Shown here: positions 6,461-54,576 of the stretch, piece by piece | Layout: each line of letters starts with the position of its first letter | How positions within the stretch are numbered: the first letter of the stretch is position 1 | Source: Candidatus Nitrospira nitrosa | Lineage (GTDB): Bacteria > Nitrospirota > Nitrospiria > Nitrospirales > Nitrospiraceae | DNA: 64,000 nucleotides | Direction: 5' to 3' | NCBI RefSeq assembly: GCF_001458735.1 | Contig: NZ_CZQA01000010.1 | Coordinates: 186,001 to 250,000 of the forward strand | The notes under the pieces: generated by a model | Told to the model about the DNA's origin: nothing | The model's database searches: none | The model's input: only the letters and a program-made list of their open reading frames with translations | Position numbers and translations under genes: made by a program

Positions 6461-9400
6461 GTGTCAGAACCTCCTGAATGATGTTCTGGTGAACAAAAGA
6501 CTGATTCACCACCGCAGGCTCTATCAAAATAATCGAAAAAGTCGACCCCGCTCCCTGTTGAGTCTGCACCTCAATCCTCCCGCCCATCGCCATCACCAGA
6601 CTCTGGGACACGGAGAGGCCCAAGCCCATCCCCTTCTGCCCCTTCGCGGTCTTCGTCGTAAAGAAGGGATCGAAGATATGCGGCAGCACATCCGGCGCAA
6701 TACCCTCCCCCTCATCAGACACACTGATCCGGACATGGTCCTCATCCTGACGAACATTCAACGTAATGGTCCCCCCTTCACGCGACGAGTCGAGGGCATT
6801 TTGAATCAAGTTCATCAAGACTTGCAGCAGATCGCTCTGTGGGACCAACAGCCTCCTCCTCAGTGGAGTCTGAGTCACGACCAGCGTCAGGCCGAGTTGG
6901 GACAGCCGCTTCGTGAATAAGGATTCCAAGTCTCGTAAGAGCAGCGCCAGATTGACCGGCTCCACCCTGCTAGGCTCTTTACGGTACAACTGATACATAT
7001 TCTGGACGATCGTGGCCACCCGTGAGATTTCCCGATCGATCATTCCGACAAATTCATAGTGAGGATGAGTAGGATCCACAGCCTGCTTCACGAGTGTGAA
7101 CGCGTTCCTGATACCGGCAATGGGGTTATTGATCTCGTGAGCCACCGCGGCGGCCATCTGACCGACGGCAGCCAATTTTTCCGTCTGCGCTCGTTGCGCT
7201 TCCAGTTTCGCGATTTCGGACGTCCGCTCCTCAACTTGACGCTCAAGCTCCTCGGCATGGCGTGACAACTGTAGTTCCAGCTGCTTGCGTACCGTGATGT
7301 CGCGGCCGGCAACCAAACGAACTTCCTTGCCCCGAAACCGATACGGTCGGACCACAAGTTCACCCGGAAACGTGGTACCGTCCTTGCGTCGTCCCACGGC
7401 TTCGTAGGGCCCAGTCACACCATCTTGCATATTCAGCTGAACATGATCACGAGACTCATCAGCGAGGAGATCAAGGATCGATCGGCCAAGCAGTTCGCCG
7501 GGTTCATATCCAAACATCCGCTCCAACCCGGCATTGACTTCAAACAGTATACCGTTATCGTGAAGGGCGATCGCATCGAATGTTGCCTCCGTCACCAACT
7601 TGTACCGCAGTTCGCTCTCACGGATCTCCGCCTCCGCTCGTTTTCGCTCACTGATATCACGCACAAATGCACACACAAGTTCCTGTCCTCCGTGGCAAAG
7701 ATAATTTGCCATCACTTCTATCGGGTAAATCTCTCCCGACTTACTGCGATGCCTGCGCTCAATGCGAAGCTGTTCCGACTGCCTTAACTCCATCCAACAG
7801 ATATCCCAAGCCTCTCGTGAACAGTCCGGATCAATGTCCATCACCGACATCGTCAAGAGTTCTTCCTTCAGATAGCCCAGCCTGCGGCAAGCCGATTCAT
7901 TAACATCGACGAGGTATCCTCTTGAATCGACAACAAAAATTTGGTCGGCGGCATGATCCACGGCATATTGGGTTCGCTGCAGTCTGTCTTCCACGCGCTT
8001 CCGCTCAACAATCTCCAGTTCGAGCGCGCGATTGGCTCTAGCCAACTGCTTTGTCCGCTCCGATACTCGCTGTTCGAGTTGCGCATTAGCCTTCCAGATG
8101 GCCTCTTCGGCCTCCCTGCGCTCCGTCACATCAGAGGTAGAACCAACCATACGTACCGGACGGCCAGCCGTGTCCCACACCGCCTGGCCTCGATCACGAA
8201 CCCAGCGATAGGAGCCGTCTTTCATCCTCACTCGCACTTCGATATCGTAGGGCTCGCGAGTCTCAAGATGCCTGCAGGTGGCTTGATGGAGCAATTCAAC
8301 GTCATCGGGATGCACCAGTGAAAGCCACAGGTCGTATGTGGGGGCGAGGTCACCTGGCGCAAACCCCAATAATTCAAGATGATGGTCAGACCAAAACTGT
8401 TCTCCAGTCCTGATATTCCAGTCCCAAATACCGTCGTTGGTCGCCTGAAGGGCCAATTCAAATCGTTCTTGGCTCTCGCGCAATGCCTGATCGGCTGCTT
8501 TCCTCGCACTGATATTACGGACGAAGGCACAGTGGAACTCTTGCCCCTGATAGGCTAGGAACACCACACGGATATCGATCGGAATCAACCGCCCATCTTT
8601 CGTCAGATGGTTTGTCTCCAATGACACCACCTTTTTCTCTCTGACCTCCTCCCACCACCCAGGCCACACCTCCGCCGGAAAGTCTGGATTCAGATCATGG
8701 ACCGTCATCCGCAAGAAATCTTCTGCGGTATACCCCAACATCGCACTAGCCGCCTCATTCGTATAGAGAATCTTGGCCTGCGGATCGATCCAATACACGG
8801 CATCCACCGCTTGGTCCATAGAAAACTGTGTACGTAGGAGATTCGTCTCGACTAGTTTACGGTCGGTAATATCAACGGTTGCTCCAATGAGATGGGTCAG
8901 CTGACCATCAGCCGAACGAACGGCATGGCCTCGGATGTCGGTCCAGATCACCGTGCCGTCTTTTCTGATCATGCGTAATTCATAGTTGTACTCGTCGGCT
9001 GCACGAGTCACGATTCGCTGCCAGTGAGCCATCGCAATCGGCTGGTCATCCGGGTGCACCAGATTCAGCCAGACAAACGGGTCGGCTGAGAGCTCGTCCG
9101 GCTGATATCCGAACATCGCTTTGAGATTCGTGTCACCATAATAGGTCCCTGCTTGCACATCGAGCTCCCAGACTCCGACTCTTCCTACCGCCGTGGCCCT
9201 GGCGTACCGATCCTCGTTCAGCCGCAGGGCCTGTTCCATGCGTTTCTGCTCGGTAATGTTCCTCAGCGTGCCCACCATCCGAATGGGCCGGCCCAGCTCG
9301 TCCCGATAGACCACGCCGTTTCCTTCGATCCATTGTACGTCGCCGATCGGCGTGAGGATCCGGTATTGCGTTCGGTAGGGTTGCCGACCGCCGAGTGCGG

Positions 9401-11423
9401 CTTCGATATCCGCAAGCAGCTTTATCAGGTCTTCCGGATGCACCAGTCGTTGATAGGTTTCAAACGTCCCGTCGAACGACTCACGAGGCACCCCCTTTAC
9501 CTCCTCACAGTTCTCTGACCAGATGATCTGGTTGGTGAGGATATTCCAATCCCAGGTCGCTAGTCGGGCAATATCCATCGCCAAACGAAGACGATCGGCT
9601 TGGTCCTGGCTCGCTCGTTCAAGCGACTTCCGTTTAGTGATGTCGACCGCGATCCCTCCGAGCAAGGGCCGTTGGCCAACTTCCAGAGGAAACTTACTCG
9701 TAAGCCAATCCCGAACCGTGCCGTCCGGACCCGGCAGTATTTCTTCGGCCTCAAGAGTCTGACCCGATGTCAACACCGCCTTGTCCTGTTGAGAAAGCCT
9801 GGTTGCGACATCCGTCGGCATAAAGTCAAATACCGTCTTAGACACTAACTCTTCCCTCGAAAGGCCTGACAGCTTTTCAAACTGAGGATTCCCATAGATG
9901 TAGCGCCCTTCAGTATCTTTGATAAACGCGATCGCCGGACTATGCTCCATGAAGGCCTGGAATCGCGCCTCACTTTCTCGCAAGGCCTCGGTCATTCTGG
10001 TATGTTCGATGGCGAGGGCCGCAATCTGGCTGACTCTTCCAAGGATCTTCAAATCAGTCGGCTGCGGCTCACGGGACTCGCAATGGTAGACCGCGAGTGT
10101 TCCGAGCAGTCTGCCGGTGGAACTGATGATGGGCATCGACCAACAGGCCTTCAGGCCATGGGTGAGCGCCACTGAAGTGTAGCCCTTCCACAAAGGGTCA
10201 GTTGCAATATCTGCCGCGATGGCGGGCTGTCGAAAGTGGGCGGCACTACCACAGGATCCACCCGTCGGCCCGATAGGAATTCGCTTGATGGCCTCCTTGT
10301 ACTGGCGAGGAAGGTTGGGCGCCGTTGCCAATAGCAGATGCGTCCCCTCCTCATCAGCGAGCATGACCGAGCAGAGCATCGGAGGCGCAAGCGTCTCGAC
10401 GGACTTGCAGATAAACCCCAGCACGGACTCAAGGGTTTCCTTCTTCGCGACAAGCTCCAACGCTTCCTTTTCCGCATCCTGGAGCGCTTCAATCCGTTTG
10501 CGCTCGGTAATGTCTGTATGTGAGCCCACCATGCGAGTAGGTTTCCCGTCGGCGTCATAGCTCACACTCCCACAGGCATGGATCCAACAGTACTCCCCAT
10601 CCTGTTTGCGGAGTCGAAATTCGACATCGTATTGCTCCGCCTTACCCCCTAGGCACTTGTTGAGTGCCGCTAAAATTCCGTCTCGATCCTGAGGGTGCAA
10701 ACGGCTTTCCCATTCCTTGTAGGTCGGGACAATTTCGTGGTCTTCGTATCCCAGCATGGATTTCCATCGAGGGGAGAAATAGACATCACCGGTCTTCAGA
10801 TTCCAATCCCAGATCCCTTCGTTCCCCCCCTGGACTACGGCGCGGACCCGATCCTCGCTTTGGCGCAAGGCTTCTTCGGCTTCCGTTCGGAGGCGACGGT
10901 TCCGGAAACCTTCGAACAGTTGGGCGCACGTGGAAAGAAACGGGTTGAGATAGGCGATCCCAGCTTCGTCATATCCACCCGGACGATCCGCAAGCCCAAT
11001 CACACCGGTCAACTGCTTACCCCGATAGATCGGCAGACCCACAAGCGTGCTCACGGAAGAATGGATGAAGAGAAACCCACATGCATGTCGATCGTTCACA
11101 ACAACTGGCTGACCGGTCGTCATCACCTGTTCACACAGCACCTTGAGGTCTCCAAGCTCGCGGTTCGGAACCGCTTGCGCCGGCAGAACCTTCGCCTCTT
11201 CATTCAAAGCGAGAGTTGTAATGGCTTGTGCCAGAAAATATGGCTTCTGTCCCGCATCTTGAAGAACCTCACCGACTATTCCATGTTCACTCCCAGTGAG
11301 ATTCAAGAGCTCTTGGAGCATCATGCGACAGACCGACTCCGGCTCTACTTCCTCGATGAAGAGAGACTGTATCCGGCTGATTGCGAGTAACAGCTGTTGA
11401 GCTGACTCTTCTCTCAGCGCCAC
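6450..11423 (-). CDS. Giant soluble sensor histidine kinase with two GAF and eight PAS domains
   Basis: This 1657-residue kinase begins at GTG (11421-11423) after GGGGGAAGGG. Approximate order: GAF (20-175), PAS (190-310), GAF (330-485), five successive PAS domains (495-1120), a coiled coil, two more PAS domains (1165-1400), HisKA (~1420-1490, His in VAHEINNPIAG near 1429) and HATPase_c (~1510-1640, with NLIQNALDSS and GLGLSVSQ). The ERK/TERK-type junctions after each PAS are typical of PAC ends. No membrane helix is evident, so it probably senses cytosolic cues such as redox state, gas ligands or energy status. Its stop overlaps the start of a receiver gene, its likely partner. The number of sensor domains is unusual even for this family. 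Confidence 0.9.
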   Translation of the reverse strand: MALREESAQQLLLAISRIQSLFIEEVEPESVCRMMLQELLNLTGSEHGIVGEVLQDAGQKPYFLAQAITTLALNEEAKVLPAQAVPNRELGDLKVLCEQVMTTGQPVVVNDRHACGFLFIHSSVSTLVGLPIYRGKQLTGVIGLADRPGGYDEAGIAYLNPFLSTCAQLFEGFRNRRLRTEAEEALRQSEDRVRAVVQGGNEGIWDWNLKTGDVYFSPRWKSMLGYEDHEIVPTYKEWESRLHPQDRDGILAALNKCLGGKAEQYDVEFRLRKQDGEYCWIHACGSVSYDADGKPTRMVGSHTDITERKRIEALQDAEKEALELVAKKETLESVLGFICKSVETLAPPMLCSVMLADEEGTHLLLATAPNLPRQYKEAIKRIPIGPTGGSCGSAAHFRQPAIAADIATDPLWKGYTSVALTHGLKACWSMPIISSTGRLLGTLAVYHCESREPQPTDLKILGRVSQIAALAIEHTRMTEALRESEARFQAFMEHSPAIAFIKDTEGRYIYGNPQFEKLSGLSREELVSKTVFDFMPTDVATRLSQQDKAVLTSGQTLEAEEILPGPDGTVRDWLTSKFPLEVGQRPLLGGIAVDITKRKSLERASQDQADRLRLAMDIARLATWDWNILTNQIIWSENCEEVKGVPRESFDGTFETYQRLVHPEDLIKLLADIEAALGGRQPYRTQYRILTPIGDVQWIEGNGVVYRDELGRPIRMVGTLRNITEQKRMEQALRLNEDRYARATAVGRVGVWELDVQAGTYYGDTNLKAMFGYQPDELSADPFVWLNLVHPDDQPIAMAHWQRIVTRAADEYNYELRMIRKDGTVIWTDIRGHAVRSADGQLTHLIGATVDITDRKLVETNLLRTQFSMDQAVDAVYWIDPQAKILYTNEAASAMLGYTAEDFLRMTVHDLNPDFPAEVWPGWWEEVREKKVVSLETNHLTKDGRLIPIDIRVVFLAYQGQEFHCAFVRNISARKAADQALRESQERFELALQATNDGIWDWNIRTGEQFWSDHHLELLGFAPGDLAPTYDLWLSLVHPDDVELLHQATCRHLETREPYDIEVRVRMKDGSYRWVRDRGQAVWDTAGRPVRMVGSTSDVTERREAEEAIWKANAQLEQRVSERTKQLARANRALELEIVERKRVEDRLQRTQYAVDHAADQIFVVDSRGYLVDVNESACRRLGYLKEELLTMSVMDIDPDCSREAWDICWMELRQSEQLRIERRHRSKSGEIYPIEVMANYLCHGGQELVCAFVRDISERKRAEAEIRESELRYKLVTEATFDAIALHDNGILFEVNAGLERMFGYEPGELLGRSILDLLADESRDHVQLNMQDGVTGPYEAVGRRKDGTTFPGELVVRPYRFRGKEVRLVAGRDITVRKQLELQLSRHAEELERQVEERTSEIAKLEAQRAQTEKLAAVGQMAAAVAHEINNPIAGIRNAFTLVKQAVDPTHPHYEFVGMIDREISRVATIVQNMYQLYRKEPSRVEPVNLALLLRDLESLFTKRLSQLGLTLVVTQTPLRRRLLVPQSDLLQVLMNLIQNALDSSREGGTITLNVRQDEDHVRISVSDEGEGIAPDVLPHIFDPFFTTKTAKGQKGMGLGLSVSQSLVMAMGGRIEVQTQQGAGSTFSIILIEPAVVNQSFVHQNIIQEVLTHET

Positions 11424-11992: not shown

Positions 11993-14239
11993 CTAGAATT
12001 CTTCGAAGTCATCGCCCGAGCTATGGCGGTCTTTGCCATTGCCCGCCGCCACGCCTGCCGGTTGCTTGTGTTCCACCGACTTGCCAGCGACCGGCTTTTT
12101 GACCGCAACCTTGCCGACCGCAGGCTTGGGCACCGGCTTGACCACCGGTCTGGGGCTCGTCTGGCTCACCGAAGCCCGTGCGGCGTGATGGCCTTCAGAC
12201 TGTGCAATCTTGAAGACCTCCACTTGCCGCATGAGCTCCTGGGCTTGGTCCTTCATGGATTGAGCTGCGGACGTCGTTTCCTCGACGAGCGCCGCATTCT
12301 GCTGTGTCGTTTCGTCCATCGACATGATGGCCTTATTCACCTGATCGATACCACTTGCCTGTTCCTGTGAGGCTGCGGTGATCTCCGCGATGATATCGGT
12401 CACACGCTTGACGGAGCTGACGATCTCTTCCAGCGTCTTGCCGGACTGGTTCACCAGCTCGCTGCCGTCGGTCACCCGTTGGATCGACTCATTGATCAAT
12501 CCTTTGATTTCTTTTGCCGCAGTAGCCGACCGTTGTGCCAAGTTGCGGACCTCCGCCGCGACGACGGCAAATCCACGGCCATGTTCTCCGGCTCTGGCCG
12601 CTTCCACGGCGGCGTTCAAGGCCAAGAGGTTGGTTTGGAACGCGATCTCATCGATCACCGTGATGATGTCGGCGATCTTCTTGCTGCTCTTGTTGATCTC
12701 GCCCATCGCATCGACGGCCTTCTTCGTGACGGCGCCTCCCTTGTCTGCCGTATCACGTGCCGCGATGGCCAACTGATTGGCCTGCTTGGCATTGTCGGCG
12801 TTCTGCTTCACCGTTGAAGTCATCTCTTCCATCGACGCGGAGGTCTCTTCGAGCGCCGAGGCCTGTTCGCTCGTGCGTTGCGACAGATCTTCGTTGCCCT
12901 TCGTGATCTGCTCGGCGCCGGCCGTCACCGACTCCACGGCATCACGCACCGTCGACATGGTATTGGTCAAGTTAGTCAATGCGGCATTGACGCTCGCCTT
13001 GATCTTCTCGAGCTCACCCTCGTAGGCGCCGCTCATCGACAGCGTCAAGTCGCCCTGTGCCAAGGCTCCGAGCGACTGTTGCGCTTCAACCATACAGGCT
13101 TCCAACTGAGTCTGCGCGTGTTTCTGCGCGGTGATATCGATGGCAAACTTCACCACTTTGAATGCTCTGCCCATCTCATCCTTGATCGGGTTGTAGGAGG
13201 CCTGAATCCACACCTCTTTTCCACCCTTACCGATGCGCCGATAGACGCCGGCATCAAACTCCCCCCGGTTCAACTTCTGCCAGAATGCAGAATATTCTGG
13301 TGAACTCGTATAGGCCCCATCACAGAACATACGGTGGTGCTGCCCCTTGACCTCATCGAGGCTGTATCCTACCGTTTTCAAGAAGTTCTCATTCGCAGTC
13401 ACAATCGTGCCGTCGAGTTTGAACTCGATAGTGGCATAGGACTTATTAATGGCATCCATGATACCTTGCGCATTCTGGCGCTGAAGTTCCTGTTCCGTAA
13501 TGTCATACCGGACTCCCAGATATTTGCGCGGCTTACCAGTCTTCTTATCGACGAACGGCGCAATCACCGCATCGACATAGTACGGATTTCCGTCCTTCGC
13601 GCGATTCTTCACGACGCCCCGGAAGATCTGCCCGCGACCGATGGTCGCCCACATCTGCTTAAACACCTCTTTGGGCATGTCCGGGTGCCTGGTCGTATTA
13701 TGCCCGAACCCGACCAACTCGTTCTTCGGATATTTGGACACTTGAAGGAACTTCTCGTTCACCGACATAATGTCGCCCTTGAGGTTGGCTTCCGACACGA
13801 TGCTGGTCGTGTTCATGATGCTCTCACGGACCTCAAGCTCGTCCCGCATGTGCATGATTTCCGTTTGCTTGGCCGTCACATCGGAAGCGAACTTCACGAC
13901 CTTGTAGGGTTTGCCCTTGGCATCCATCAACGGGTAGTAGGCAGCCTGAATCCAGACGTCCTTGCCCCCCTTGCCGACACGCTGATAGGTTCCGGCATCA
14001 TACTCGCCCCGATTCAACTTCTGCCAAAACGCAGAGTATTCGGGTGAGTTTGTCCAGGCACTGTCGCAGAACATCCGATGGTGCTGTCCCTTGATCTCAT
14101 CGAGGGTGTACCCGAGCGTCTTCAAGAAATTGTCGTTGGCGGTGATGACCGTCCCATCCATATTGAATTCAATGATGGCCTGCACTTGGTCAATCGCCTT
14201 CAGTTTCGCAACCAGCTCTTCGACATTCACATTGTCCAT
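11993..14239 (-). CDS. Soluble methyl-accepting chemoreceptor with three PAS domains
   Basis: The chosen start ([13 protein letters not shown]) follows AAGGAGGGAGG and gives 748 residues; an in-frame ATG at 14347, also with a fair ribosome-binding site, would add 36. Three PAS domains (~10-130, 135-255, 260-380) come before a HAMP-like stretch and the methyl-accepting domain (~420-660), with hairpin tip [20 protein letters not shown] that contacts CheA and CheW. PAS1 and PAS3 are close duplicates, sharing GQHHRMFCD and [15 protein letters not shown]. No transmembrane segment is visible, so it is a cytosolic receptor, possibly for redox or haem-type signals (inference). A Lys/Pro/Ala-rich tail ends in DFEEF, which fits a CheR/CheB-docking pentapeptide. 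The cheW gene precedes it in one transcription unit. Confidence 0.9.
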
Positions 14240-14372
14240 GGATCGTCCTCCCTCCTTATTAGTGTGCTGGATGCGATGCCGCATCGCAGAATCATCGGAT
14301 GCCTCGACAGACGTCTCGTGTTCGTTGTGAGTCAACTCAGGGTCCATGCTGCACTCCCCTCTTTCCTCATAA

Positions 14373-14894
14373 TTACGCCGCTTTCGGTGCTTTCGCGCCA
14401 TCCTGCATCTCGTCATCGAGCAACAGGCGATCCATATCCAGGAGCGCCACCAACTTGTCGTTCGATTTCCCGATCCCATTCAAGAAGCTCACGTCCACCT
14501 TGGCTCCGAACTGCGGCGGCGGTTGAATGTCTTTCTTGTCGATATTCAACACGTCCGAAACCGCATCCACCACCAACCCCATGACCTTGTCACGCACGAC
14601 GACGACAATGATCACGGTAAAAGCCGTGTAATCGATGGTCTGCATATTGAATTTGGTGCGAAGTTCGATGATCGGCACGATGGTGCCGCGCAGATTCAAC
14701 ACCCCCTTGATATGCGAGGGCGTATTGGGGATCTTCGTAACGGCGGTATAACCCTTAATCTCCTGGACGCGGAGAATATCCACGCCGTAGAGCTCCTCCC
14801 CCAAATTAAACGTGAGAAACTGGCTCCCGTCCGTGGTCAGCCCGATCTGCTGATGCAACTCTTTGGTCGCGGTTTCGAGTGCTGCTGCCGCCAT
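14373..14894 (-). CDS. cheW: Chemotaxis coupling protein CheW
   Basis: This 173-residue protein has one CheW domain (~20-160): [20 protein letters not shown], then [16 protein letters not shown], the conserved coupling-surface motif. CheW links chemoreceptors to the kinase CheA in the polar array. The gene is first in a unit with the soluble triple-PAS receptor (start 134 bp after its stop for the chosen start, or 25 bp for the upstream one). A sigma-28-like promoter lies about 80 bp upstream. The Ala/Lys-rich C-terminus (DGAKAPKAA) is slightly longer than in the shortest family members. Confidence 0.93.
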
Positions 14895-14971
14895 AGCGCC
14901 TCCTTCATTGGGCCTGCCGCCCCTCGTACGACATCCATTGCCCTCGACCGTATGTCGGGCTCGACAGGGCT

Positions 14972-14998
14972 CTATCGGTTCTCACACAAAAAACTTTA
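14972..14998 (-). promoter_or_regulatory. Sigma-28 (FliA) promoter for cheW and the receptor
   Basis: Minus-strand TAAAGTTT, 11 bp, then ACCGATAG (TAAA-N15-ACCGATAG). This matches the FliA consensus TAAAGTTT-N11-GCCGATAA at 14 of 16 positions, with ideal spacing. The predicted start is ~70 bp upstream of the cheW ATG. Confidence 0.8.
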
Positions 14999-15012
14999 CT
15001 CCTTCACTCCTT

Positions 15013-15360
15013 CTACCCGCGTACTCCCGGCCAGACCATGTCATACCGGATCTCCTTGTGGGGATGGAGTCGTCGTGCGCGTTCCAGTAACACACCCGTG
15101 GATTCAGGGAACTGCGGATCCGGCACGCAACAGTCCCCGATCGGACAGGCGGACGCACATTGAGGCTCGGCAAAATGGCCGACACATTCCGTACACCGAT
15201 CGTGAGAAATGACGTAGGTAGTCCCGTCGAGCCCCTGTCCGGCGCTCACGCGATAGCCATTGGATTCGGCATCGCCACGTTTCTCGAAAATCGCCTGATT
15301 GGGGCAGGCTGCCAGACAGGCGTCACAAGAGATGCAATTGTTATTGATGAGCAACGCCAT
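15013..15360 (-). CDS. 4Fe-4S ferredoxin (YfhL-like, two-cluster type)
   Basis: A 115-residue ferredoxin. The first cluster motif is CISCDACLAACP (~10-21). The second is CTECVGHFAEPQCASACPIG with the longer loop typical of YfhL and Allochromatium-type 2[4Fe-4S] ferredoxins. I chose ATG at 15360 (MALLINNNCISC) because it follows GAGAGGTACC; five more residues would be read from 15375. It carries electrons between unidentified cytosolic partners. It lies 3' of ribBA with a 39-bp gap containing a TTCACATGTGAA palindrome, and a sigma-28-like promoter for cheW overlaps its 3' flank. It has no evident tie to motility. Confidence 0.88.
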   Translation of the reverse strand: MALLINNNCISCDACLAACPNQAIFEKRGDAESNGYRVSAGQGLDGTTYVISHDRCTECVGHFAEPQCASACPIGDCCVPDPQFPESTGVLLERARRLHPHKEIRYDMVWPGVRG

Positions 15361-15377
15361 GATGGTACCTCTCATCG

Positions 15378-15389
15378 TTCACATGTGAA
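15378..15389. promoter_or_regulatory. 12-bp perfect palindrome upstream of the ferredoxin gene
   Basis: TTCACATGTGAA lies 18 bp before the ferredoxin start and is followed by GTGACACGTTCAC. It could be an operator, but it also belongs to a set of GTGAAAC-rich intergenic motifs in this window, so a specific role is not supported. Confidence 0.3.
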
Positions 15390-15399
15390 GGTGACACGT

Positions 15400-16611
15400 T
15401 CACACCGCCAGCAGGAGATGCCCCATCTTCTCTTTCTTGGTCCGCAGGTACTTGAGATTCATCCGGCCCGGATGGATCTCCAACGGCACTCGCTCCACGA
15501 CTTTTAAGCCATACCCTTCGATGCCGATGATTTTTCTTGGGTTATTCGTCATGAGCCGGATGGATCGAAGACCGAGGTCGGCCAGAATCTGCGCTCCAAC
15601 GCCGTAGTCCCGCAGATCGGCCTGAAACCCGAGCTGTAAATTGGCTTCAACCGTGTCGCTGCCTCGATCTTGGAGTCCGTAGGCTTTGATCTTGTTGAGG
15701 AGACCGATCCCCCGCCCTTCCTGATTGAGATACAACAACACCCCACGGCCTTCCCGCTCGATCAATTCCATCGCCCGATGCAGCTGATCCCCGCAATCAC
15801 AACGCAATGATCCGAGGACATCGGCCGTCAGACAGCCGGAGTGCACACGGACCAGCGTGGGTCGGCTTCCCTCAATGGAGCCTTTCACCAGCGCCAGATG
15901 CGTGCTGCCGTCGATCGTATTCTGATAGGCGATCGCCTCGAACGCTCCGAACTTGGTGGGCAACTGCGTGCTCGCCACTCGCGTCACGAAGGGCTCTCGT
16001 TTCATTCGGTATTCAATGAGCGATTTGATGGTGATCATCTTGAGTTTGTGCTTGGCCGCAAAGCGCGACAAGGCCGGGACCCGGGCCATCGTGCCGTCCT
16101 CATTCATGATCTCGCAGATCACGCCCGCCGGATACAGTCCGGCCAACCGTGCCAGATCGACGGATCCCTCCGTCTGCCCGGCACGCTTCAAAACCCCTCC
16201 GTGCTGCGCCTTGAGCGGAAAGACATGACCCGGTCTGGCAAGATCGGCAGGCTTGCTCTTAGGATTGATGGCGACCTGAATCGTTTTGGCCCTGTCGGCG
16301 GATGAAATCCCCGTTGTGATGCCCTGTTTTGCGTCGACTGACACGGTGAAGGCCGTCCCGAATGTTGCGGTATTGTCTGCTGCTTGCTGGGGAAGGTGGA
16401 GCTCTTCAACCCGTTCAGGTGTCAAGGCCAGACAGATCAACCCACGTGCATGTTGAGCCATAAAATTGATCGCGCGGGAAGTCGTGAATTGAGCGGCAAT
16501 GACGAGATCACCCTCATTCTCCCGGTCTTCGTCATCGACCAAGATGATGAACTTGCCTTGTTTGATGTCACGGAGCGCGCCTTCGATGCTGTCAAATGTC
16601 TTCGGCTTCAT
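15400..16611 (-). CDS. ribBA: Bifunctional 3,4-dihydroxy-2-butanone-4-phosphate synthase / GTP cyclohydrolase II
   Basis: This 403-residue two-domain enzyme makes both early precursors of riboflavin. Residues ~1-200 are the RibB domain, which converts ribulose 5-phosphate to dihydroxybutanone phosphate plus formate ([26 protein letters not shown]). Residues ~206-400 are GTP cyclohydrolase II (RibA), with zinc ligands in [18 protein letters not shown] near 257-270 and the GTP-site stretch [10 protein letters not shown]. Length and order are normal for RibBA. Its neighbours are cheA and a ferredoxin gene, so it seems to be a housekeeping gene within a motility region. A 19-bp repeat, also found inside cheA, lies just upstream. 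Confidence 0.95.
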
Positions 16612-16627
16612 TTCACGTCCCGGTTAG

Positions 16628-16646
16628 GAGTTTCGTATTGCGGGTT
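16628..16646. repeat. 19-bp dispersed repeat, copy 1
   Basis: gagtttcgtattgcgggtt, upstream of ribBA. It is identical but for one base to 18241-18259 inside cheA. This pattern, one intergenic and one intragenic copy, suggests a small mobile or REP-like unit. Confidence 0.55.
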
Positions 16647-16834
16647 GCGAAGGACACGTTCCGATTCTCACACTCCCAATCCAAAACCTAGCGAAGGTCT
16701 GATTTATTCTGAATTTCGATCACAAGCCAGTCCAATCTCCAGTGTTTTGAGAGCGGGTTGGTTAAAAAGCTGAATTAATCGGATCTTCCCTAGAACTCAA
16801 AACTTGAAAGGCATAACTTGGACCAGGATTGCCC

Positions 16835-19012
16835 CTACGCTGCAACCGGCGTGTTATGCCGCGCGATCTCCAGCAGCCCTCGCACATCGAGAATAAATCC
16901 GACTGTGCCGTCCCCCAGGATCGTGGCCCCGGCAATCCCTTCGACCTTCCTGAAGTTTTGCTCCATGCTCTTGATCACGACCTGCTGCTGCCCGAGAATT
17001 TCGTCCACCATGACCGCCACCCGTTCCCCTTCGGTTTCGAGAATCAATAAGATCGATTTCATGGGGTTGGTATATTCGGGCTCCAGGACAAACACCTCGT
17101 ACATTCGAATCATCGGCAGATAGGTGCCTCGGACATTGATCAGTTCGCCCTTGCCGACCACGGTCTTGATGGTTCCGGCTTTAGGTTGAATCGACTCCAG
17201 AATCGAGAGCAACGGGACAATGTAGGTTTCCTTGCCGACCCGAACCGTCATCCCTTCGATGATGGCAAGTGTGAGCGGCAACTTCAGCGTGAACGTCGTC
17301 CCCTTTCCTGTGACGGTCTTGATACTGACTGTCCCTCCGAGGGCTTCAATGTTCCGCTTGACGACATCCATGCCGACGCCGCGACCGGAAACATCCGTCA
17401 CCTTTTCGGCTGTGGAAAATCCAGGCCGGAAAATCAACGGCCAAATCTGGTCGTCGGAGAGTTTTTCGTTTTCCCCGATCAACCCCTGTTTGACGGCCTT
17501 CGCGACGATTTTGTCGCGGTTCAGGCCCCGTCCGTCGTCTTCCACCGTGATGCAAATGTTGCCACCTTCGTGAAATGCATTGAGCCGGATCGTTCCCACT
17601 TCCGACTTATTGTTGTCGAGCCGTTCTTCCGGTGGCTCCAGCCCATGATCGGCTGAATTCCTGACCAGATGCGTCAACGGATCGCCGATGGATTCGATGA
17701 CTGTCTTATCCAACTCGGTTTCTTCTCCGGAGAGCACCAACTGAATCTTCTTTCCCGCTTTGGTCGACAAATCGCGGACCAATCTCGGAAACCGGCTGAA
17801 TGCGGTCCCGATCGGAAGCATGCGGATACCCATGACCCGTTCTTGAATTTCTCTGGTATTGCGCTCCAACTGTGCGACCCGCTCGAGCAAGACCGGCAAC
17901 TGCTTGATCTCGAAACGCGACCCCAAATCGCTCAACATGGATTGGGTGATCACCAGCTCTCCCACCAGATTGATCAATTTGTCGATCTTTGCCGTATCCA
18001 CGCGAATGGAGGTCGTGTCGGTTTTTTTCGTGTGGGACGCAGCCTCCTGTTGCCGTTGGGTATTGAGCGCTTGTTCCAACTGATGTGGAGTGACGGCCTT
18101 CTGCTCAACCAGAATCTCGCCGACTCGCTTCTGCTGGGACAATGCCTGTTCAAGGACAGCCGGTGAAACGACGCCGCTTTCAACCAGAATCGCGCCGAGA
18201 GGCTTAAGGCCACCTTCGACAGTTTCTGGTGGCTGGTTTCGAGTTTCGTATTGAGGGTTCTGGCTCGCAGCCTGAAACTCGGAACTCGCAATGGTCTGCG
18301 CCTCGATGACGAGCTTGCTGTCCTCACGGACAAACTCGAAGGCAGACTCAATGGTCTTTTGATCCTTACCGGTGAGGAGTTGTAACTCCCAGGAGAGGTA
18401 GCACTTTTCCGGGTCGATCTCGGCCAAATCCGGGACTCGAGACATATCGAGTGTCACCGAACTCAGATCTCCAAGACCGTTCAACTCCTTTAAAACCTGT
18501 AGCGGGTCAAGTCCGCGTTGGAACAACCACTCCGGGGGCGTCCACTTGATAACATAGCTGCGTTCTTGACTGTCGGACTGCGTCGGAGCGGCGACGGACT
18601 GCTTCTGTGGCACGGCGGGTGGCTGCGCACCGGATGCAGTCGCCAGCTCTGCCGTCAGGCGCTGAACCACCTCATCGTCCACCGCCACCCCGGATTTCAC
18701 CGCTTCGATTAACGTCTTCAAGCAATCGGTGGACTTGAGCAGCAAGTCGGCGATCGGCGGAGACACCGCTTTCTCCCCGGTTCTGAGCAAATCGAGCAAG
18801 GTCTCCATCTTATGGGTAAATTGCGTCACCGCGTTGAATCCGAACATCCCGCTCGCCCCCTTGATCGAATGGGCCGAACGGAAGATCTTGGCGAGCAACT
18901 CAAGATCCTGTGGATGCTGTTCCAGCGCCAGCAAGCCTTCCTCGACGATCGCCAAATGCTCGGCTGCTTCTTCGAAAAAGGCTTCCTGAAATTGTGCGAA
19001 TTCATCACTCAT
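16835..19012 (-). CDS. cheA: Chemotaxis histidine kinase CheA with MshE-N-like insertion
   Basis: The 725-residue kinase phosphorylates CheY in response to receptor arrays. Order: Hpt/P1 (~1-110, His48 in FRSAHSIKGASG), linker, a P2-like CheY-binding region (~165-240), an insertion (~265-330), P3 dimerisation (~335-410), P4 ATPase (~420-565, VRNSADHGLE and GRGVGMDVV) and the P5 CheW-like domain (~570-705). The insertion contains two short repeats, LGAILVESGVVSPAVLEQAL and VGEILVEQKAVTPHQLEQAL. These resemble the MshE-N motif that binds cyclic di-GMP in some type II/IV secretion ATPases, and they are not part of standard CheA. A 19-bp dispersed repeat lies in the linker coding DNA. cheY, a CheZ-like gene and a STAS gene precede it. 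Confidence 0.93.
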   Translation of the reverse strand: MSDEFAQFQEAFFEEAAEHLAIVEEGLLALEQHPQDLELLAKIFRSAHSIKGASGMFGFNAVTQFTHKMETLLDLLRTGEKAVSPPIADLLLKSTDCLKTLIEAVKSGVAVDDEVVQRLTAELATASGAQPPAVPQKQSVAAPTQSDSQERSYVIKWTPPEWLFQRGLDPLQVLKELNGLGDLSSVTLDMSRVPDLAEIDPEKCYLSWELQLLTGKDQKTIESAFEFVREDSKLVIEAQTIASSEFQAASQNPQYETRNQPPETVEGGLKPLGAILVESGVVSPAVLEQALSQQKRVGEILVEQKAVTPHQLEQALNTQRQQEAASHTKKTDTTSIRVDTAKIDKLINLVGELVITQSMLSDLGSRFEIKQLPVLLERVAQLERNTREIQERVMGIRMLPIGTAFSRFPRLVRDLSTKAGKKIQLVLSGEETELDKTVIESIGDPLTHLVRNSADHGLEPPEERLDNNKSEVGTIRLNAFHEGGNICITVEDDGRGLNRDKIVAKAVKQGLIGENEKLSDDQIWPLIFRPGFSTAEKVTDVSGRGVGMDVVKRNIEALGGTVSIKTVTGKGTTFTLKLPLTLAIIEGMTVRVGKETYIVPLLSILESIQPKAGTIKTVVGKGELINVRGTYLPMIRMYEVFVLEPEYTNPMKSILLILETEGERVAVMVDEILGQQQVVIKSMEQNFRKVEGIAGATILGDGTVGFILDVRGLLEIARHNTPVAA
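18241..18259. repeat. 19-bp dispersed repeat, copy 2, inside cheA
   Basis: gagtttcgtattgagggtt lies in the cheA linker (residues ~251-257) and reads through in frame as part of SQNPQYETRNQ on the minus strand. It matches the copy upstream of ribBA at 18 of 19 bases. Confidence 0.55.
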
Positions 19013-19106
19013 AGGGCCTCGTGAGATGTGAAACCTGAGATGTGAAACGCTAAGGAACTTCCCATACCTCTCACTTTATGCATCTTCTGTTTCACTTTTA
19101 CGACAT

Positions 19107-19478
19107 TTATGCCGGCAGTACCTTTGCGATGGTCTTCAGAAGTGTTTCAGGGTTGAACGGCTTGACGAGCCATCCCGTTGCTCCGGCTTCCTTCCCCGCT
19201 TGCTTCTTCTCGATCGCGGATTCGGTCGTGAGCATTAGAATCGGCGTATATTTGAACGCGCTCAATTTGCGCAATTCCTTGATGAGGGTAATCCCATCCA
19301 TCTCAGGCATATTGAGATCGGTCACCACAATATCCATCTTACCCGCCGCCGCAACCTTGTTCACGGCGTCTTTCCCATGCTCGGCTTCGACGACCGTAAA
19401 GCCGGCATTGGTCAGTGTAAAGGCGACCATCTGGCGCATCGTCGGCGAATCATCCACGATCAGCGCGGTCTTACTCAT
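19107..19478 (-). CDS. cheY: CheY-like single-domain response regulator (second copy)
   Basis: A 123-residue receiver-only protein. MSKTALIVDDSPTMRQ places the acidic pair at 9-10; the phospho-acceptor is Asp54 (VVTDLNMPEMDG), the conserved Lys lies in LVKPFNPE, and the Thr/Ser switch is in MLTTES. I chose ATG at 19478 because it follows GGAGGGGAAT. Phospho-CheY binds the flagellar switch. With cheA immediately downstream, and a CheZ-like gene upstream, this copy likely belongs to the same phosphorelay. A second CheY (23037-23417) is more divergent; which one drives the motor cannot be read from sequence. Confidence 0.9.
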   Translation of the reverse strand: MSKTALIVDDSPTMRQMVAFTLTNAGFTVVEAEHGKDAVNKVAAAGKMDIVVTDLNMPEMDGITLIKELRKLSAFKYTPILMLTTESAIEKKQAGKEAGATGWLVKPFNPETLLKTIAKVLPA

Positions 19479-19569
19479 ATTCCCCTCCAGGGCCAATCTC
19501 TTGCGCGTGTCGGTTATTCATGACCATGACTAGACTTCCCGCCTTTCTAAGCGAAACCCTTCCGCATGA

Positions 19570-20112
19570 CTAAAACAGCGTCACTGAATCCTCGCCGTTG
19601 TCGGAGGCCTCCACCGGCACAGGCTCTTGATATTGAGGTTGAAGCGCAGCCTGATGCAGACGGCGCTCTGCCTCCATGGTGTAGTTTTCCTCGATCCGTT
19701 CAAGTCCAGCCAGCTCTTGGGCCGTCTCCTCTGTAAGCGGACCTTCTTGCAGAATCTGAAGATGCCGTTTGAATTGATCTAACGCTTGCCCCACATGCTC
19801 CAACTTTTGCCGAGTAATGTCCTGGAACTGCATCGCCATGACGACCTTGGAGATCACTTCGGCCCGTGCGACGGATGTCATGGTCTCGGCACCCGACGCG
19901 AGCGCTTGCAACTGCACCAGTAGTTCGACCGCAGCACGCTCAGTTTCGGCTGTTACCGCGCTCATCTGCGCCTTCAATACTGGGATCGTGCGGACGACCC
20001 CGTCGGCAAACGTATTCCACGCTCGGTGATGGGCGAGCAGCTCCGTGACCGAGCTCTTCTCCCCAACAGAGGACCTCTGAGAGTCTCCTTCTTGAGCGCT
20101 CACAGTCCTCAT
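19570..20112 (-). CDS. CheZ-like phosphatase family protein
   Basis: This 180-residue mostly helical protein has the CheZ catalytic signature FQDITRQ, with Asp98 and Gln102 in the D-x3-Q spacing of E. coli CheZ Asp143 and Gln147. CheZ dephosphorylates CheY-P. The C-terminus EDSVTLF is acidic and then hydrophobic, as in the CheY-tethering peptide of CheZ. Overall similarity to classical CheZ is low, so it may be a divergent phosphatase or a CheZ-fold relative. It lies between a STAS gene and cheY, in line with cheA. A clearer CheZ is encoded at 22400-22987. Confidence 0.6.
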   Translation of the reverse strand: MRTVSAQEGDSQRSSVGEKSSVTELLAHHRAWNTFADGVVRTIPVLKAQMSAVTAETERAAVELLVQLQALASGAETMTSVARAEVISKVVMAMQFQDITRQKLEHVGQALDQFKRHLQILQEGPLTEETAQELAGLERIEENYTMEAERRLHQAALQPQYQEPVPVEASDNGEDSVTLF

Positions 20113-20221
20113 TGTTCGAGTCTATTGGTTATGGTCGGCTGTCCGAGGACGACGCAGACCCTGGGCTGACAACTTGCCTCACGATGAAACACCAGACTGT
20201 TCGTCATACAGCCAGTACGCC

Positions 20222-20524
20222 TTATTCACTCAACTGGCCTGTGAAGCCGAGTTGTTTGAGTTTGTCCTGTAAATCTTCTGGGATCCCCATCACCAGCATG
20301 CGCGCCTGCTTGCGAGCCGCTAGCATCAGCTGGATTGCGGCTGTATCCACCCGATCGACGTTGCTGAGATCCAAGGACACCAACCCTTCGTTGGCCATCA
20401 ACTTCACCAATGCCTCCTTGAATTCTCCTGCTTCAAAAATGGAGAGGTCTCCTATAGGGGCAAGATGTCTTGGGTTCTCTGCTTGTGCCTGAGGCGTATT
20501 GGTTCCAGACGGTTCCGTCATCAT
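20222..20524 (-). CDS. Stand-alone STAS domain protein
   Basis: A 100-residue STAS (anti-anti-sigma-type) domain after a ~20-residue flexible N-terminus. The core LVSLDLSNVDRVDTAAIQLM is typical, with Thr61 at the phosphorylatable Ser/Thr position of SpoIIAA. Small STAS proteins next to chemotaxis genes occur in several phyla and may work in partner-switching or array localisation. No anti-sigma kinase is visible nearby. Translation could start at either of two adjacent ATGs. A sigma-28-like promoter sits 38 bp upstream, so this is probably the first gene of the unit continuing to cheA. Confidence 0.8.
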   Translation of the reverse strand: MMTEPSGTNTPQAQAENPRHLAPIGDLSIFEAGEFKEALVKLMANEGLVSLDLSNVDRVDTAAIQLMLAARKQARMLVMGIPEDLQDKLKQLGFTGQLSE

Positions 20525-20561
20525 CGCTTGTAGGACCTCTTAGATTGACGCACTAACGTGT

Positions 20562-20589
20562 TATGTCGGCAATTGTCCTTTATGACTTG
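20562..20589 (-). promoter_or_regulatory. Probable sigma-28 promoter for the STAS-to-cheA genes
   Basis: Minus-strand TCAA, 16 bp, GCCGACAT. This keeps the GCCGA core but differs from GCCGATAA at two positions. The spacing equals that of the csrA and HD-GYP promoters in this window. Confidence 0.5.
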
Positions 20590-20659
20590 AGTGCCTGCCA
20601 TCAACTTTGGTCTTTCTTTCTGATGGGCCTGACATGCCCACCTCTAGATCGCGCAACCC

Positions 20660-21457
20660 CTAGGGCAACGGACTTGATGCCCCCTCCTCCACCGATGGCT
20701 CCCCTGAACCAGCAGTATTCGCCGTCTCATACTGAGGAGCTGGTGGCGCCTGTTCGAGAATGACGACCTCGACTCGCCGATTCTTGGCCCGCTGCTCCAT
20801 ATCCAGGTTGGGGGTCACAGGCCTCGTATCGGCGTGCCCCACCGCCGCCAACCGCTCAGACGGCACGGCAAACAACTCTGACAAGACCCTGACGACCATG
20901 ACCGCACGGGCGGCAGAAAGTTCCCAATTTGACGGGAATTGTGCCGTGCGTATGGGAACGTTGTCCGTATGCCCCTCGACCCTGGTATACCGGTTGAGTT
21001 CCACAATAGCCGCGCTCAGGCCTTCCAGAAACGGCAGCGCTTCGCTGCGCACGGCTGCTTCGCCGCTATTGAACAGCAACTGATCCGGAATCGTAATCAC
21101 GATATCTCCGTTGACCCGTTCCGTGATCCGTACCAGCGATAGCTGCGGCGAGGCTTTAATCCCTTTCACGAGATTTCGTAATTTGCGGATCGCCACATCC
21201 TTGCTCCCTGGAGTATCGGGTGCCGTCACTGCCTGCTTGCTGGCACTCAATGCCAACGGGGTCGGGGAAGACGGCGGGCTGACGATGGGATTCAGCGCGG
21301 CTTTGATCGACTCGCTGACGGTTCGGTACTTTCCCACATTGACTGAGGAGATCGAGTACATCACGACGAAAAAAGCGAACAGCAAGGTAATAAAGTCAGC
21401 ATAGGAGACGAGCCATCGCTCGTGATTTTCATGCTCCTCATGCTTGTGTTTCGCCAT
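20660..21457 (-). CDS. motB: Flagellar stator protein MotB
   Basis: A 265-residue stator subunit. A short charged N-terminus (MAKHKHEEHENHERW) leads into a single membrane helix (~16-38) with the ion-carrying Asp21 (YADFITLLFAFFVVMYS). A plug and linker region follow, then a C-terminal OmpA/MotB peptidoglycan-binding domain (~120-245: VEGHTDNVPIRTAQFPSNWE, LAAVGHADTRPV, RRVEVVIL). The tail is Pro/Ser/Glu-rich. It pairs with MotA, encoded immediately upstream, to form the proton or sodium channel; the sequence alone does not settle which ion. Its start lies 49 bp after the motA stop. Confidence 0.93.
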   Translation of the reverse strand: MAKHKHEEHENHERWLVSYADFITLLFAFFVVMYSISSVNVGKYRTVSESIKAALNPIVSPPSSPTPLALSASKQAVTAPDTPGSKDVAIRKLRNLVKGIKASPQLSLVRITERVNGDIVITIPDQLLFNSGEAAVRSEALPFLEGLSAAIVELNRYTRVEGHTDNVPIRTAQFPSNWELSAARAVMVVRVLSELFAVPSERLAAVGHADTRPVTPNLDMEQRAKNRRVEVVILEQAPPAPQYETANTAGSGEPSVEEGASSPLP

Positions 21458-21505
21458 GCGTCACCGTGAAGCGTGAACTGCTTGTGATGCCTTGGGTTTC
21501 ACGTG

Positions 21506-22276
21506 TTACTTTTTCCCCTCTTTCGTCCGCTCACTGTGCGGCAGCACGCTTTCCAACTTCTCCTGCAAAAGTCGGGGGTTTTCTCCTTGCGCAAGCCCAG
21601 CCAGCCCCATAATCATTAAGTTTCTGGAACCGGCTTCCTCTTTCAGTTTCAATTTGATCTTATTGGCCAATGGCAAAAAAAAGAGGTTTGCCGCTCCCAC
21701 TCCATAGACGGTCGCCACGAACGCCACCGCGATTCCGCCGCCCAACTTTGACGGATCGGCCAGATTTTCCATCACGTGAATGAGACCAAGCACGGCTCCG
21801 ATAATGCCGACGGTTGGGGCATAGCCGCCGGCTGCTTCCCAGACCTTCGCCGCAATCACACCTTGCTCCTCGTGGTGCTCCACCTCAATTTCGAGAATCT
21901 CGATCACCGCTTTGGGCTCCGTCCCGTCGACAATAAGCTGGACACCCTTTTTCATGAACGGATCCGTGATGGTTTTGAGTTTTCCTTCTAATGCCAGCAG
22001 GCCTTGTTTCCGCGAGATATTGGCAAGCTCCAGGATGAGTTTAATCGTACCCTTGTTGTCGATGTGGGGGCCTGAAATTGCGATGCTCAGCGCGCCGAAT
22101 GCCCTGATCACGACCGGCAATGGGTTCTGTATGCAAATAGCACCAAACGTGCCGCCGATCACGATAATGAAAGCCGTCAGCTGCATGATCGAACCCAGGT
22201 GTCCACCTTCGAGCACCTGGCCTCCGATAATGGAGCCCAACGCGATCACGATCCCAAGGATTGTTGCGATATCCAT
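21506..22276 (-). CDS. motA: Flagellar stator protein MotA
   Basis: A 256-residue protein with the four membrane helices of MotA/PomA: two near the N-terminus (~1-25 and 33-52) and two in ~150-205 (PTVGIIGAVLGLIHVMENL, GIAVAFVATVYGVGAANLFF). Between them is the cytoplasmic torque loop (~70-140). The charged residues of this loop contact FliG. The length is like the shorter MotA/PomA type rather than E. coli MotA. It forms the stator with MotB, whose gene follows. cheZ lies 123 bp upstream. Confidence 0.93.
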   Translation of the reverse strand: MDIATILGIVIALGSIIGGQVLEGGHLGSIMQLTAFIIVIGGTFGAICIQNPLPVVIRAFGALSIAISGPHIDNKGTIKLILELANISRKQGLLALEGKLKTITDPFMKKGVQLIVDGTEPKAVIEILEIEVEHHEEQGVIAAKVWEAAGGYAPTVGIIGAVLGLIHVMENLADPSKLGGGIAVAFVATVYGVGAANLFFLPLANKIKLKLKEEAGSRNLMIMGLAGLAQGENPRLLQEKLESVLPHSERTKEGKK

Positions 22277-22399
22277 TCGCCATCGCCCTCATGCATGCAA
22301 CCGATGAGGCGTTGCCGGTTTCTGTTTGAACGCCTTTGGCTTCGAGTTTTCGGACAACATGAGCGTCAAAACCAGGAACGGAAACTGCTCCCTGGAGTC

Positions 22400-22987
22400 C
22401 TATTTGAACCCAAATTGCGCCAGGATATCGTCGGCCACTTTCTGCTTCATGGCGGTGGTCTTGGACTCCTCGAGTTGTTTCAATAGATGCCCCGCCGTGC
22501 CTTCGATCACCACCTTCTCTCCGTTCTCTTGCAACCCAAACACCACCACGAGCTCCATTAACTTATGTTGCACTTCGTCGAGAATCGAGACGAGCTTCTT
22601 CACCCGTTGTGCCACCAAGTCCTGGAAGGACAATGCTGTCATGATTTCGGTCAAATATTTCCCCTCTTGGCCCACGAGGGTATTGATGCTCTCCAGTCGT
22701 TCCGCAAGCTTGCTACAGTCCATGGTCTGTAAGACCTCAATGACCGCCCTCAGCTCCTTCCCGATATGGCTGTGCTCATCCTGGATCAACTCTGTCAATC
22801 GCATCACCTCAAGCGTCCCTTCTTCCGTCATCTTATTGAGGTCACTCAGATGCGAGGATGCCGTCGGCAACTGTTGGCTGCTGGAGATGAGCTGTGGACC
22901 GGCGTTGGAAATGGCCTTCATCGCGTTTTCGACGAACCGTGCCAAGTCACCGAGCTCTTTGTAGAGTTTATGTCCGCCTTTTTTCAC
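22400..22987 (-). CDS. cheZ: CheY phosphatase CheZ
   Basis: A 195-residue helical protein. The core ALSFQDLVAQRVKKLV contains catalytic Asp123 and Gln127 in the D-x3-Q arrangement of CheZ. The last residues, ADDILAQFGF, match the C-terminal CheY-binding peptide of E. coli CheZ (DDLLDSLGF). CheZ accelerates dephosphorylation of CheY-P and so resets the motor. The gene follows cheY (49 bp gap) and precedes motA and motB. A second, more divergent CheZ-like gene lies 2.3 kb downstream. The ATG at 22987 begins with a Lys/Gly-rich segment (MKKGGHKLYKEL). Confidence 0.88.
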   Translation of the reverse strand: MKKGGHKLYKELGDLARFVENAMKAISNAGPQLISSSQQLPTASSHLSDLNKMTEEGTLEVMRLTELIQDEHSHIGKELRAVIEVLQTMDCSKLAERLESINTLVGQEGKYLTEIMTALSFQDLVAQRVKKLVSILDEVQHKLMELVVVFGLQENGEKVVIEGTAGHLLKQLEESKTTAMKQKVADDILAQFGFK

Positions 22988-23036
22988 GCTTGCCTCCCTC
23001 GGGTCCCTTCATGCTCAATGTCCCGTGCACTCCACG

Positions 23037-23417
23037 TTATTTGAATATCTTTGCGAGTTTTTCTTGCATCGTCTCGGCCGTGAACGGCTTTACGATGTAA
23101 TTGCTGACGCCCGCCTGTACCGCCTCCACTAAATTTTTCTGTTGCGCCTCAGCCGTCACCATAAGAACCGGTATGGCTTTTAACTGTTCGTCCGCCCGGA
23201 TCGCCCGGAGCATGTCGATCCCCGTCATCACGGGCATGTTCCAATCTGAGACGACGAAGTCATACTTGCTGGATTTGAGTTTTTGCAGACCATCCTGGCC
23301 GTTCTCGGCTTCGTCGATATTTGAGAAGCCGAGTTGCTTCAGAACGTTTTTGACAATTCTTCGCATCGTGACCATGTCATCCACGATGAGAATTTTCATG
23401 CTTGGATCGGCTGGCAT
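23037..23417 (-). CDS. cheY: Chemotaxis response regulator CheY
   Basis: A 126-residue receiver, close to E. coli CheY in sequence: [20 protein letters not shown], phospho-acceptor Asp58 ([12 protein letters not shown]), Thr in MVTAEAQ and Lys in [10 protein letters not shown]. The ATG at 23417 follows AGGAGGCAAT; a downstream Met at 23399 is possible. Its SDWNMP and MVTAE motifs are those of motor-binding CheYs, so I take it as the principal flagellar switch regulator. cheZ, motA and motB follow in the same direction. Confidence 0.93.
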
Positions 23418-26101: not shown

Positions 26102-26710
26102 CTAGTTGGGTTGACCTCGACCTGCGCGCAATCGTTGGGCTTGCACATGCAAGATGTGGCGAATTAAGTGCTCTTGATCATCAGGCGTCAGATCGACGAA
26201 CTCAGTGGCTATCGTGAACCCTTGGCCATCGGCTTCTCGCACCGCACGAATGACTTTCACATGCGCCCGGATCATGGTGAACGGTGGAAGGATGAGCTTG
26301 ACCGCCAGTTGATCATCGGCGGCGAATTCCCGCATGGAGACGAACCCGATCCCCCCCCCGCTCAAACTAACCGCCATAGGCTGTGCCATTGTAACGCTGG
26401 CCGGCTGACTGGTGGCAAGAGCATTCAGAATCACTTCGAGCAGGTAGTCGACCTTCCGAATCCAAGGGAGAACCGCTGAATCGACGATGATCTCACTGGA
26501 GCGAGCCAGAAGATCCAAGGTTGGTTTGCCCACGGCTGCGGCAATCGATTCTGGAGTTGCAGGGTTCCGTTCGACCGGCACACTGGTTTCTCCCTCGGTC
26601 ACCAGTCGATATTCCATCAGGACCCGATCCTCAATCCTGATCCATTCCCGGCGTTCGTCCGGCTCCACACTGTGAGACTTCGACGACGCACTTATCATCG
26701 ATGACGCCAT
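26102..26710 (-). CDS. PilZ domain protein (cyclic-di-GMP receptor)
   Basis: A 202-residue protein. RREWIRIEDRVLMEYR near residues 20-35 supplies the RxxxR motif. SLSGGGIGF (~115) resembles the [DN]xSxxG motif of PilZ domains, with Ser in place of the first acidic residue. Between the two halves lies a long helical insertion (~50-105), so the fold is of the extended PilZ type. PilZ proteins change partner binding when cyclic di-GMP is present and often act on motors or exopolysaccharide export. The gene is 3' of the fliC-fliT genes and 5' of the chemoreceptor pseudogene. Binding may be weaker if the Asp/Asn-to-Ser change matters. Confidence 0.8.
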   Translation of the reverse strand: MASSMISASSKSHSVEPDERREWIRIEDRVLMEYRLVTEGETSVPVERNPATPESIAAAVGKPTLDLLARSSEIIVDSAVLPWIRKVDYLLEVILNALATSQPASVTMAQPMAVSLSGGGIGFVSMREFAADDQLAVKLILPPFTMIRAHVKVIRAVREADGQGFTIATEFVDLTPDDQEHLIRHILHVQAQRLRAGRGQPN

Positions 26711-54428: not shown

Positions 54429-54576
54429 CGTGATTCTTCCTCGTTGAGCACTCGCTACAAACACTTGCTGATGGGCTCTATCGGCCTATCAGAGGCTATT
54501 CTTGAGCATTAAGGATGCGAGACGGAACGCATTGATTCCCAATGAATTGCAACGCACATCGTCTGGCACCCACCGA

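Follow-up and report, generated by a model that had tools for sequence, protein, structure and literature searches.

A compact MshEN_N-like element between the P2-like and P3 domains of a Nitrospira CheA, a candidate site of direct cyclic di-GMP input

Results

Organization of the cheA locus

The window, a 64,000-nucleotide stretch of the 4.42-Mb genome assembly of Candidatus Nitrospira nitrosa, contains a minus-strand ORF (16835..19012) encoding a 725-residue flagellar CheA. The Pfam core domains follow one another in the order Hpt, H-kinase_dim, HATPase_c and CheW, and the complete architecture reads P1, P2-like, MshEN_N-like, P3, P4 and P5. P1/Hpt (residues 9-107, 18692..18988; PF01627, E 1.1e-17) carries the HSIKG phosphorylation motif. 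It is followed on the same strand by the P2-like, putatively CheY-docking domain (residues ~151-239, 18296..18562), the MshEN_N-like element (residues 270-322, 18047..18205), the P3 dimerization domain (H-kinase_dim, residues 334-395, 17828..18013; PF02895, E 5.3e-19), the P4 kinase domain (HATPase_c, residues 446-581, 17270..17677; PF02518, E 4.2e-19) and the P5 CheW-like domain (residues 586-715, 16868..17257; PF01584, E 3.7e-27). The CheAs of close relatives are 74-99% identical to this protein.

A Pfam scan of the neighbors shows that cheA lies within a minus-strand flagellar chemotaxis cluster (11993..23417), which also encodes a PAS-containing MCP, CheW, a CheY-like receiver (19107-19496), a STAS protein (20222-20524), MotB (20660-21457), CheZ (22400-22987) and CheY (23037-23417). 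A 180-residue minus-strand ORF (19570-20112), flanked by a cheY and the STAS gene, has no Pfam match. Further along the same strand, a 1657-residue sensor kinase-like ORF (6450-11423) appears by eye to contain many PAS/GAF repeats. The genome encodes a second CheA-like protein (G000:C9:265968-267836, a 1125-residue frame), and a motif scan of its locus did not find the motif pair described below.

The surroundings had been described as rich in c-di-GMP proteins. This goes too far, since two PilZ domains are present in the window but GGDEF domains are absent. The first PilZ protein (202 residues, PilZ at residues 112-186; 26102-26710, minus strand) is encoded close to the flagellar cluster, and the second (53706-54464, minus strand) has its match at 53805-54104. 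The genome as a whole encodes six GGDEF, 27 PilZ and four MshEN proteins.

Residues 151-239 adopt a ferredoxin-like fold in the AF2 model, with pLDDT of 93-97. Their superposition on the P2 domain of Thermotoga maritima CheA (PDB entry 1u0s; Z 7.9, 3.0 Å over 77 residues) ties with those on unrelated ferredoxin-like folds. The Pfam threshold for P2 is missed by this CheA and reached by only one of 69 homologs.

Two tandem MshEN-type motifs

The linker between the P2-like and P3 domains contains two motifs of 24 residues each: motif I (residues 271-294, 18131..18202, minus strand; PLGAILVESGVVSPAVLEQALSQQ) and motif II (residues 296-319, 18056..18127, minus strand; RVGEILVEQKAVTPHQLEQALNTQ). 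Lys295 alone separates them, and they have the same residue at 13 of 24 positions. Both were compared with the 24-residue consensus (R/K/L)LGxx(L/V/I)(L/V/I)xxG(L/V/I)(L/V/I)xxxxLxxxLxxQ, which has 11 specified positions and was taken from Wang et al. 2016 (PMC5013675) as extended by a 2024 study of PilF. Motif I matches at 10 of the 11 positions and motif II at eight, while any other window of the protein matches at six or fewer. When the whole protein was shuffled 20,000 times, the top-scoring window reached 10 once and at least eight about 370 times (~2%), and an abutting pair with these scores therefore lies far outside chance expectation. The two repeats that the original prediction had placed between the P2-like and dimerization domains are thus confirmed, by consensus score, shuffling and the domain boundaries from Pfam and AF2.

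The deviations from the consensus are Pro271, Val297, Lys305 and Ala306. Motif I retains Leu272, Gly273, Leu287, Leu291 and Gln294 and has Pro271 in place of the consensus Arg; motif II retains Arg296, Gly298, Leu312, Leu316 and Gln319, with Val297 replacing Leu and Lys305 replacing the turn Gly. Most of the Arg, Gly and Leu contacts named beforehand as decisive are therefore in place; those corresponding to MshE Arg9 (Pro271) and Leu39 (Val297) and to the turn Gly of motif II (Lys305) are not.

Homology to the N-terminal half of MshEN

In phmmer searches of the PDB, a 55-residue piece covering the element matched the whole chain of PilF (E 8.5e-12), the GSPII-C domain of PilF as a separate chain (E 2.1e-5) and MshE (PDB entry 5htl, E 2.1e-4). 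A profile built from 64 CheA elements retrieved only MshE, PilF and PilB from the solved structures at E<1e-4. Alignment of a 20-sequence CheA profile to MshE by hhalign gave a probability of 97.4%, with a four-residue gap between the motifs. Together with the predicted fold described below, these results support homology of the CheA element to the c-di-GMP-binding N-terminal half of MshEN, and it is classed here as a compact MshEN_N form rather than a full MshEN domain. The homology that underlies the proposed MshE-like input of c-di-GMP is thereby upheld; the input itself is weighed in the Discussion.

The Pfam MshEN model, PF05157, has no match in this CheA or in 69 CheA fragments. In the MshEN proteins of the same genome, the PF05157 match begins downstream of both motifs; judged from these alignments, it is chiefly the C-terminal MshEN subdomain that the model represents, and this CheA has no such subdomain. 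Its silence is for this reason no argument against homology, and PF05157 was dropped as a yes/no test for MshEN. The Pfam search proposed at the outset was thus flawed as a test, and the profile comparison by hhalign is positive.

DUF4388 (PF14332) scores 25.7 bits against the 55-residue piece and 18.8 bits against full-length CheA, the cut-off being 25. The match to full-length CheA covers only model positions 34-79 of 122; the part that resembles the element spans positions ~33-79, and the remainder of the model has no counterpart in CheA. Given this partial resemblance to the MshEN motif, some DUF4388 proteins may be kin to c-di-GMP-binding modules.

Predicted fold of the element

An AF2 model of residues 130-424 (295 residues, 68 homologs) predicts four helices in the element, at residues 272-278, 284-292, 297-303 and 309-328. 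Block means of pLDDT are 83-91 through residue 319 and fall to 73 at residues 320-329. The flanking stretches, residues 244-266 and 330-338, are of low confidence, and for this reason the element seems to be a flexibly tethered bead and not a rigid extension of P3.

Comparison with ligand-bound MshE had been proposed at the outset, and searches with VIA-align using the 295-residue model highlight c-di-GMP-bound MshE (5htl) as the closest structure, with residues 267-322 superposing at 1.8 Å over 56 residues (Z 9.2, 41% identity). The second match is the c-di-GMP-bound GSPII-B domain of PilF (PDB entry 8pfa; Z 9.0, 1.3 Å over 53 residues). A Z score of about 9 is weak by itself for a helical bundle, but here it is backed by identities of 30-41% and by independent profile matches. 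An isolated 69-residue AF2 model (pLDDT 84.7) gave no MshE match by Foldseek and was likewise matchless in VIA-align, so that the closed bundle is uncertain and could be a product of its context or of the modeling.

Comparison with MshE and PilF

The element shares with Vibrio cholerae MshE (5htl) the two tandem LG..LV-type 24-residue motifs, the contact Gly and Gln residues, most of the Leu residues and, in the model of the larger fragment, a predicted four-helix bundle. However, the motif spacer is one residue in CheA and five in MshE, the C-terminal MshEN subdomain is missing, Arg9 and Leu39 are replaced by Pro271 and Val297, and the partner is CheA rather than a pilus ATPase. MshEN_N alone binds c-di-GMP with a KD of 0.35 µM (PMC5013675).

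In Thermus thermophilus PilF, GSPII-C is the closest PDB sequence (as a separate chain) and GSPII-B the closer fold by RMSD. Unlike the CheA element, both domains are larger, contain the C-terminal subdomain and belong to a traffic ATPase. According to the 2024 PilF study, GSPII-B binds c-di-GMP at 6 nM without the Arg, which is dispensable. GSPII-C, in which one motif begins with Pro as motif I does here, has a KD of about 0.3-0.5 µM, although which pair of motifs does the binding is uncertain because it has a third. MshEN domains can also be degenerate and fail to bind, as in XpsE and PilF GSPII-A.

Distribution among CheAs

The searches recovered about 165 distinct CheAs that carry the element; they belong to Nitrospirota, "deltaproteobacteria", Spirochaetes, Deferribacteres, Magnetococcales and SAR324. 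Within Nitrospirota, 137 of 295 sampled genomes match a 98-residue query that covers the element and runs into P3; the weakest of them may match P3 alone. Scanning GTDB contigs yielded 80 loci, each aligned over essentially the full query, carrying the labels Nitrospirae, Geobacteraceae, Desulfuromonadales, Desulfobulbaceae, Desulfovibrio-like, SAR324, Deferribacteraceae, Spirochaetes (including Treponema) and Magnetococcales. A search of viral contigs found no relatives.

The spacer is a single residue in 150 of the 165 CheAs and five residues in three. One locus (L105) has a spacer of exactly five residues, as in MshE, and three others (L091, L109 and L111) represent a paralogous CheA class of the relatives (ORFs of ~625-640 residues) with both motifs and spacers of 4-8 residues. 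A long-spaced pair is also present in two gammaproteobacterial plasmid CheAs, from Pseudomonas sp. HR96 (L194) and Aeromonas sp. BC14 (L195), where the gene order is MCP-receiver-STAS-cheA-MCP.

CheAs of Vibrio, Sphingobium, Cupriavidus, Sinorhizobium, Phaeobacter and Acetoanaerobium have a low-complexity linker in place of the element. With these proteins lacking it and the motif scan of the second CheA-like protein of the genome finding no pair, the element is best regarded as a frequent yet optional insertion between P2 and P3, and the many CheAs that lack it presumably work without it.

Conservation at contact positions

Conservation was assessed in the 165 distinct CheA sequences. These are related to one another, and the profiles used to gather them contain the motifs; the percentages that follow are thus not independent counts. 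Numbering positions within each motif, motif I has Gly3 in 100%, Leu2 in 79% (Ile in 16%), Leu17 in 73%, Leu21 in 90% and Gln24 in 80% of sequences. The corresponding values for motif II are 98% for Gly3, 95% for Leu21 and 99% for Gln24; position 2 is Val, Leu or Ile, and position 17 is Val (66%) or Ile (21%; 87% together) and not Leu. In the GTDB-contig subset, the motif I Gln is present in 65%, position 1 of motif I is Lys or Arg in 92%, and an Ala-Leu-x-Glu-Gln stretch in motif II has Ala in 95% and Glu in 96%. Position 1 of motif I in the clade of the present CheA is mostly Pro, and otherwise Gln, Ser or Leu.

Two substitutions in MshE bear on the Gly residues: the G11L and G40I variants have melting temperatures within the 46-60 °C range of other variants but lose the shift induced by c-di-GMP (PMC5013675). 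The invariance of Gly is thus better explained by a ligand than by folding. In XpsE, which does not bind, both Gly residues and the second Gln are missing (PMC5013675). The near-invariance of Gly and of the second Gln across many lineages favors ligand binding and is the best evidence obtained here for a ligand.

Discussion

The preferred explanation is that residues 267-322 form a compact c-di-GMP-binding MshEN_N half, tethered by the two flexible stretches of the P2-P3 linker. One c-di-GMP would be held per element, between the motifs, with one guanine contacting each, as in MshE and PilF. Bound nucleotide might then order or reposition the P1-P2 arm against the P3-P5 core, and a rise in c-di-GMP, for instance near surfaces, could tune phosphorylation of P1 or transfer to CheY. 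Homology, predicted fold, position and conservation support the nature and placement of the element, ligand binding is suggested by the same evidence, and the direction and route of any effect on the kinase are speculative. As a whole, an MshEN_N-type bead that binds c-di-GMP and modulates CheA is an explanation for which we consider the chances about even. Binding by this particular element, argued from homology, fold and conservation, is likewise plausible, the case for and against being evenly balanced, and falls short of certainty because Pro271 replaces Arg, Val297 replaces Leu and Lys305 replaces the turn Gly. Also weighing against it are the one-residue spacer, the isolated 69-residue model, the Val or Ile at position 17 of motif II, the 65% frequency of the motif I Gln in the GTDB-contig subset and the many CheAs without the element. 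Among the openly readable papers searched, none reports c-di-GMP binding by any such CheA. GGDEF proteins are encoded in all 45 of 45 sampled genomes with the element, a co-occurrence that is uninformative, since every genome is positive and most such bacteria have GGDEF proteins.

A less probable alternative, but one to be taken seriously, is that the element descends from MshEN_N and has lost nucleotide binding, persisting in the P2-P3 linker as a structural bead or a protein-docking surface that determines how far the P1-P2 arm extends or which contacts form within the array. The one-residue spacer in 150 of 165 CheAs, the occupation of key positions by Pro271, Val297 and Lys305 in this CheA, and the failure of the stand-alone 69-residue model to match MshE are all consistent with such a loss, for which XpsE and PilF GSPII-A provide precedents. 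The XpsE precedent also cuts the other way: its losses include both Gly residues and the second Gln, precisely those that are nearly invariant in CheA, and the bundle in the larger-fragment model superposes on ligand-bound MshE and PilF.

It is conceivable, though rather unlikely, that the element recognizes something else: 3',3'-cGAMP in lineages resembling Geobacter, which uses cGAMP, or another protein, for example a receiver or one with a PilZ domain. MshEN does bind cGAMP weakly (PMC5013675), and two features exceed what is known of the ligand contacts, namely the compact spacer and the Ala-Leu-x-Glu-Gln stretch conserved in motif II; against this, the conserved Gly and Gln residues fit the known contacts to c-di-GMP. 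That the likeness arose by chance or low complexity in an unstructured linker, as might be suspected from the Pfam gathering score not being reached over this stretch in full-length CheA and from the low-complexity linkers at the same place in other CheAs, is hardly credible and is refuted by the shuffles, the PDB and profile matches, the structural model and conservation across many lineages.

The fusion itself is not new. As early as 2016, the main text of Wang et al. (PMC5013675) recorded MshEN with "chemotaxis protein kinase CheA", the same fusion partner as here; with this and the wide occurrence of the element, the original supposition that no standard CheA domain has this sequence does not hold. 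New here are the dominance of the compact, one-residue-spacer form among the sampled CheAs, its wide distribution and its pattern of conservation. A 2023 survey of CheA architectures lists P2, CheY-like and CheC/CheX as auxiliary domains and contains neither of the terms c-di-GMP and DUF; its silence on the element is probably due to the Pfam MshEN model missing the motif half.

In the known cases, c-di-GMP is linked to chemotaxis by way of separate receptors or of chemoreceptors that carry PilZ. The usual description of CheA gives it no sensor domain of its own (PMC10782961). If functional, a ligand-binding module inside CheA would feed directly into the kinase; the element is common enough for this to be tested in ordinary laboratory organisms. 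It is possible, at somewhat less than an even chance, that the compact MshEN_N form with the one-residue spacer represents a widespread and overlooked ligand-binding domain of flagellar CheA, through which Nitrospirota, "deltaproteobacteria", Spirochaetes and further lineages would let c-di-GMP act directly on this kinase.
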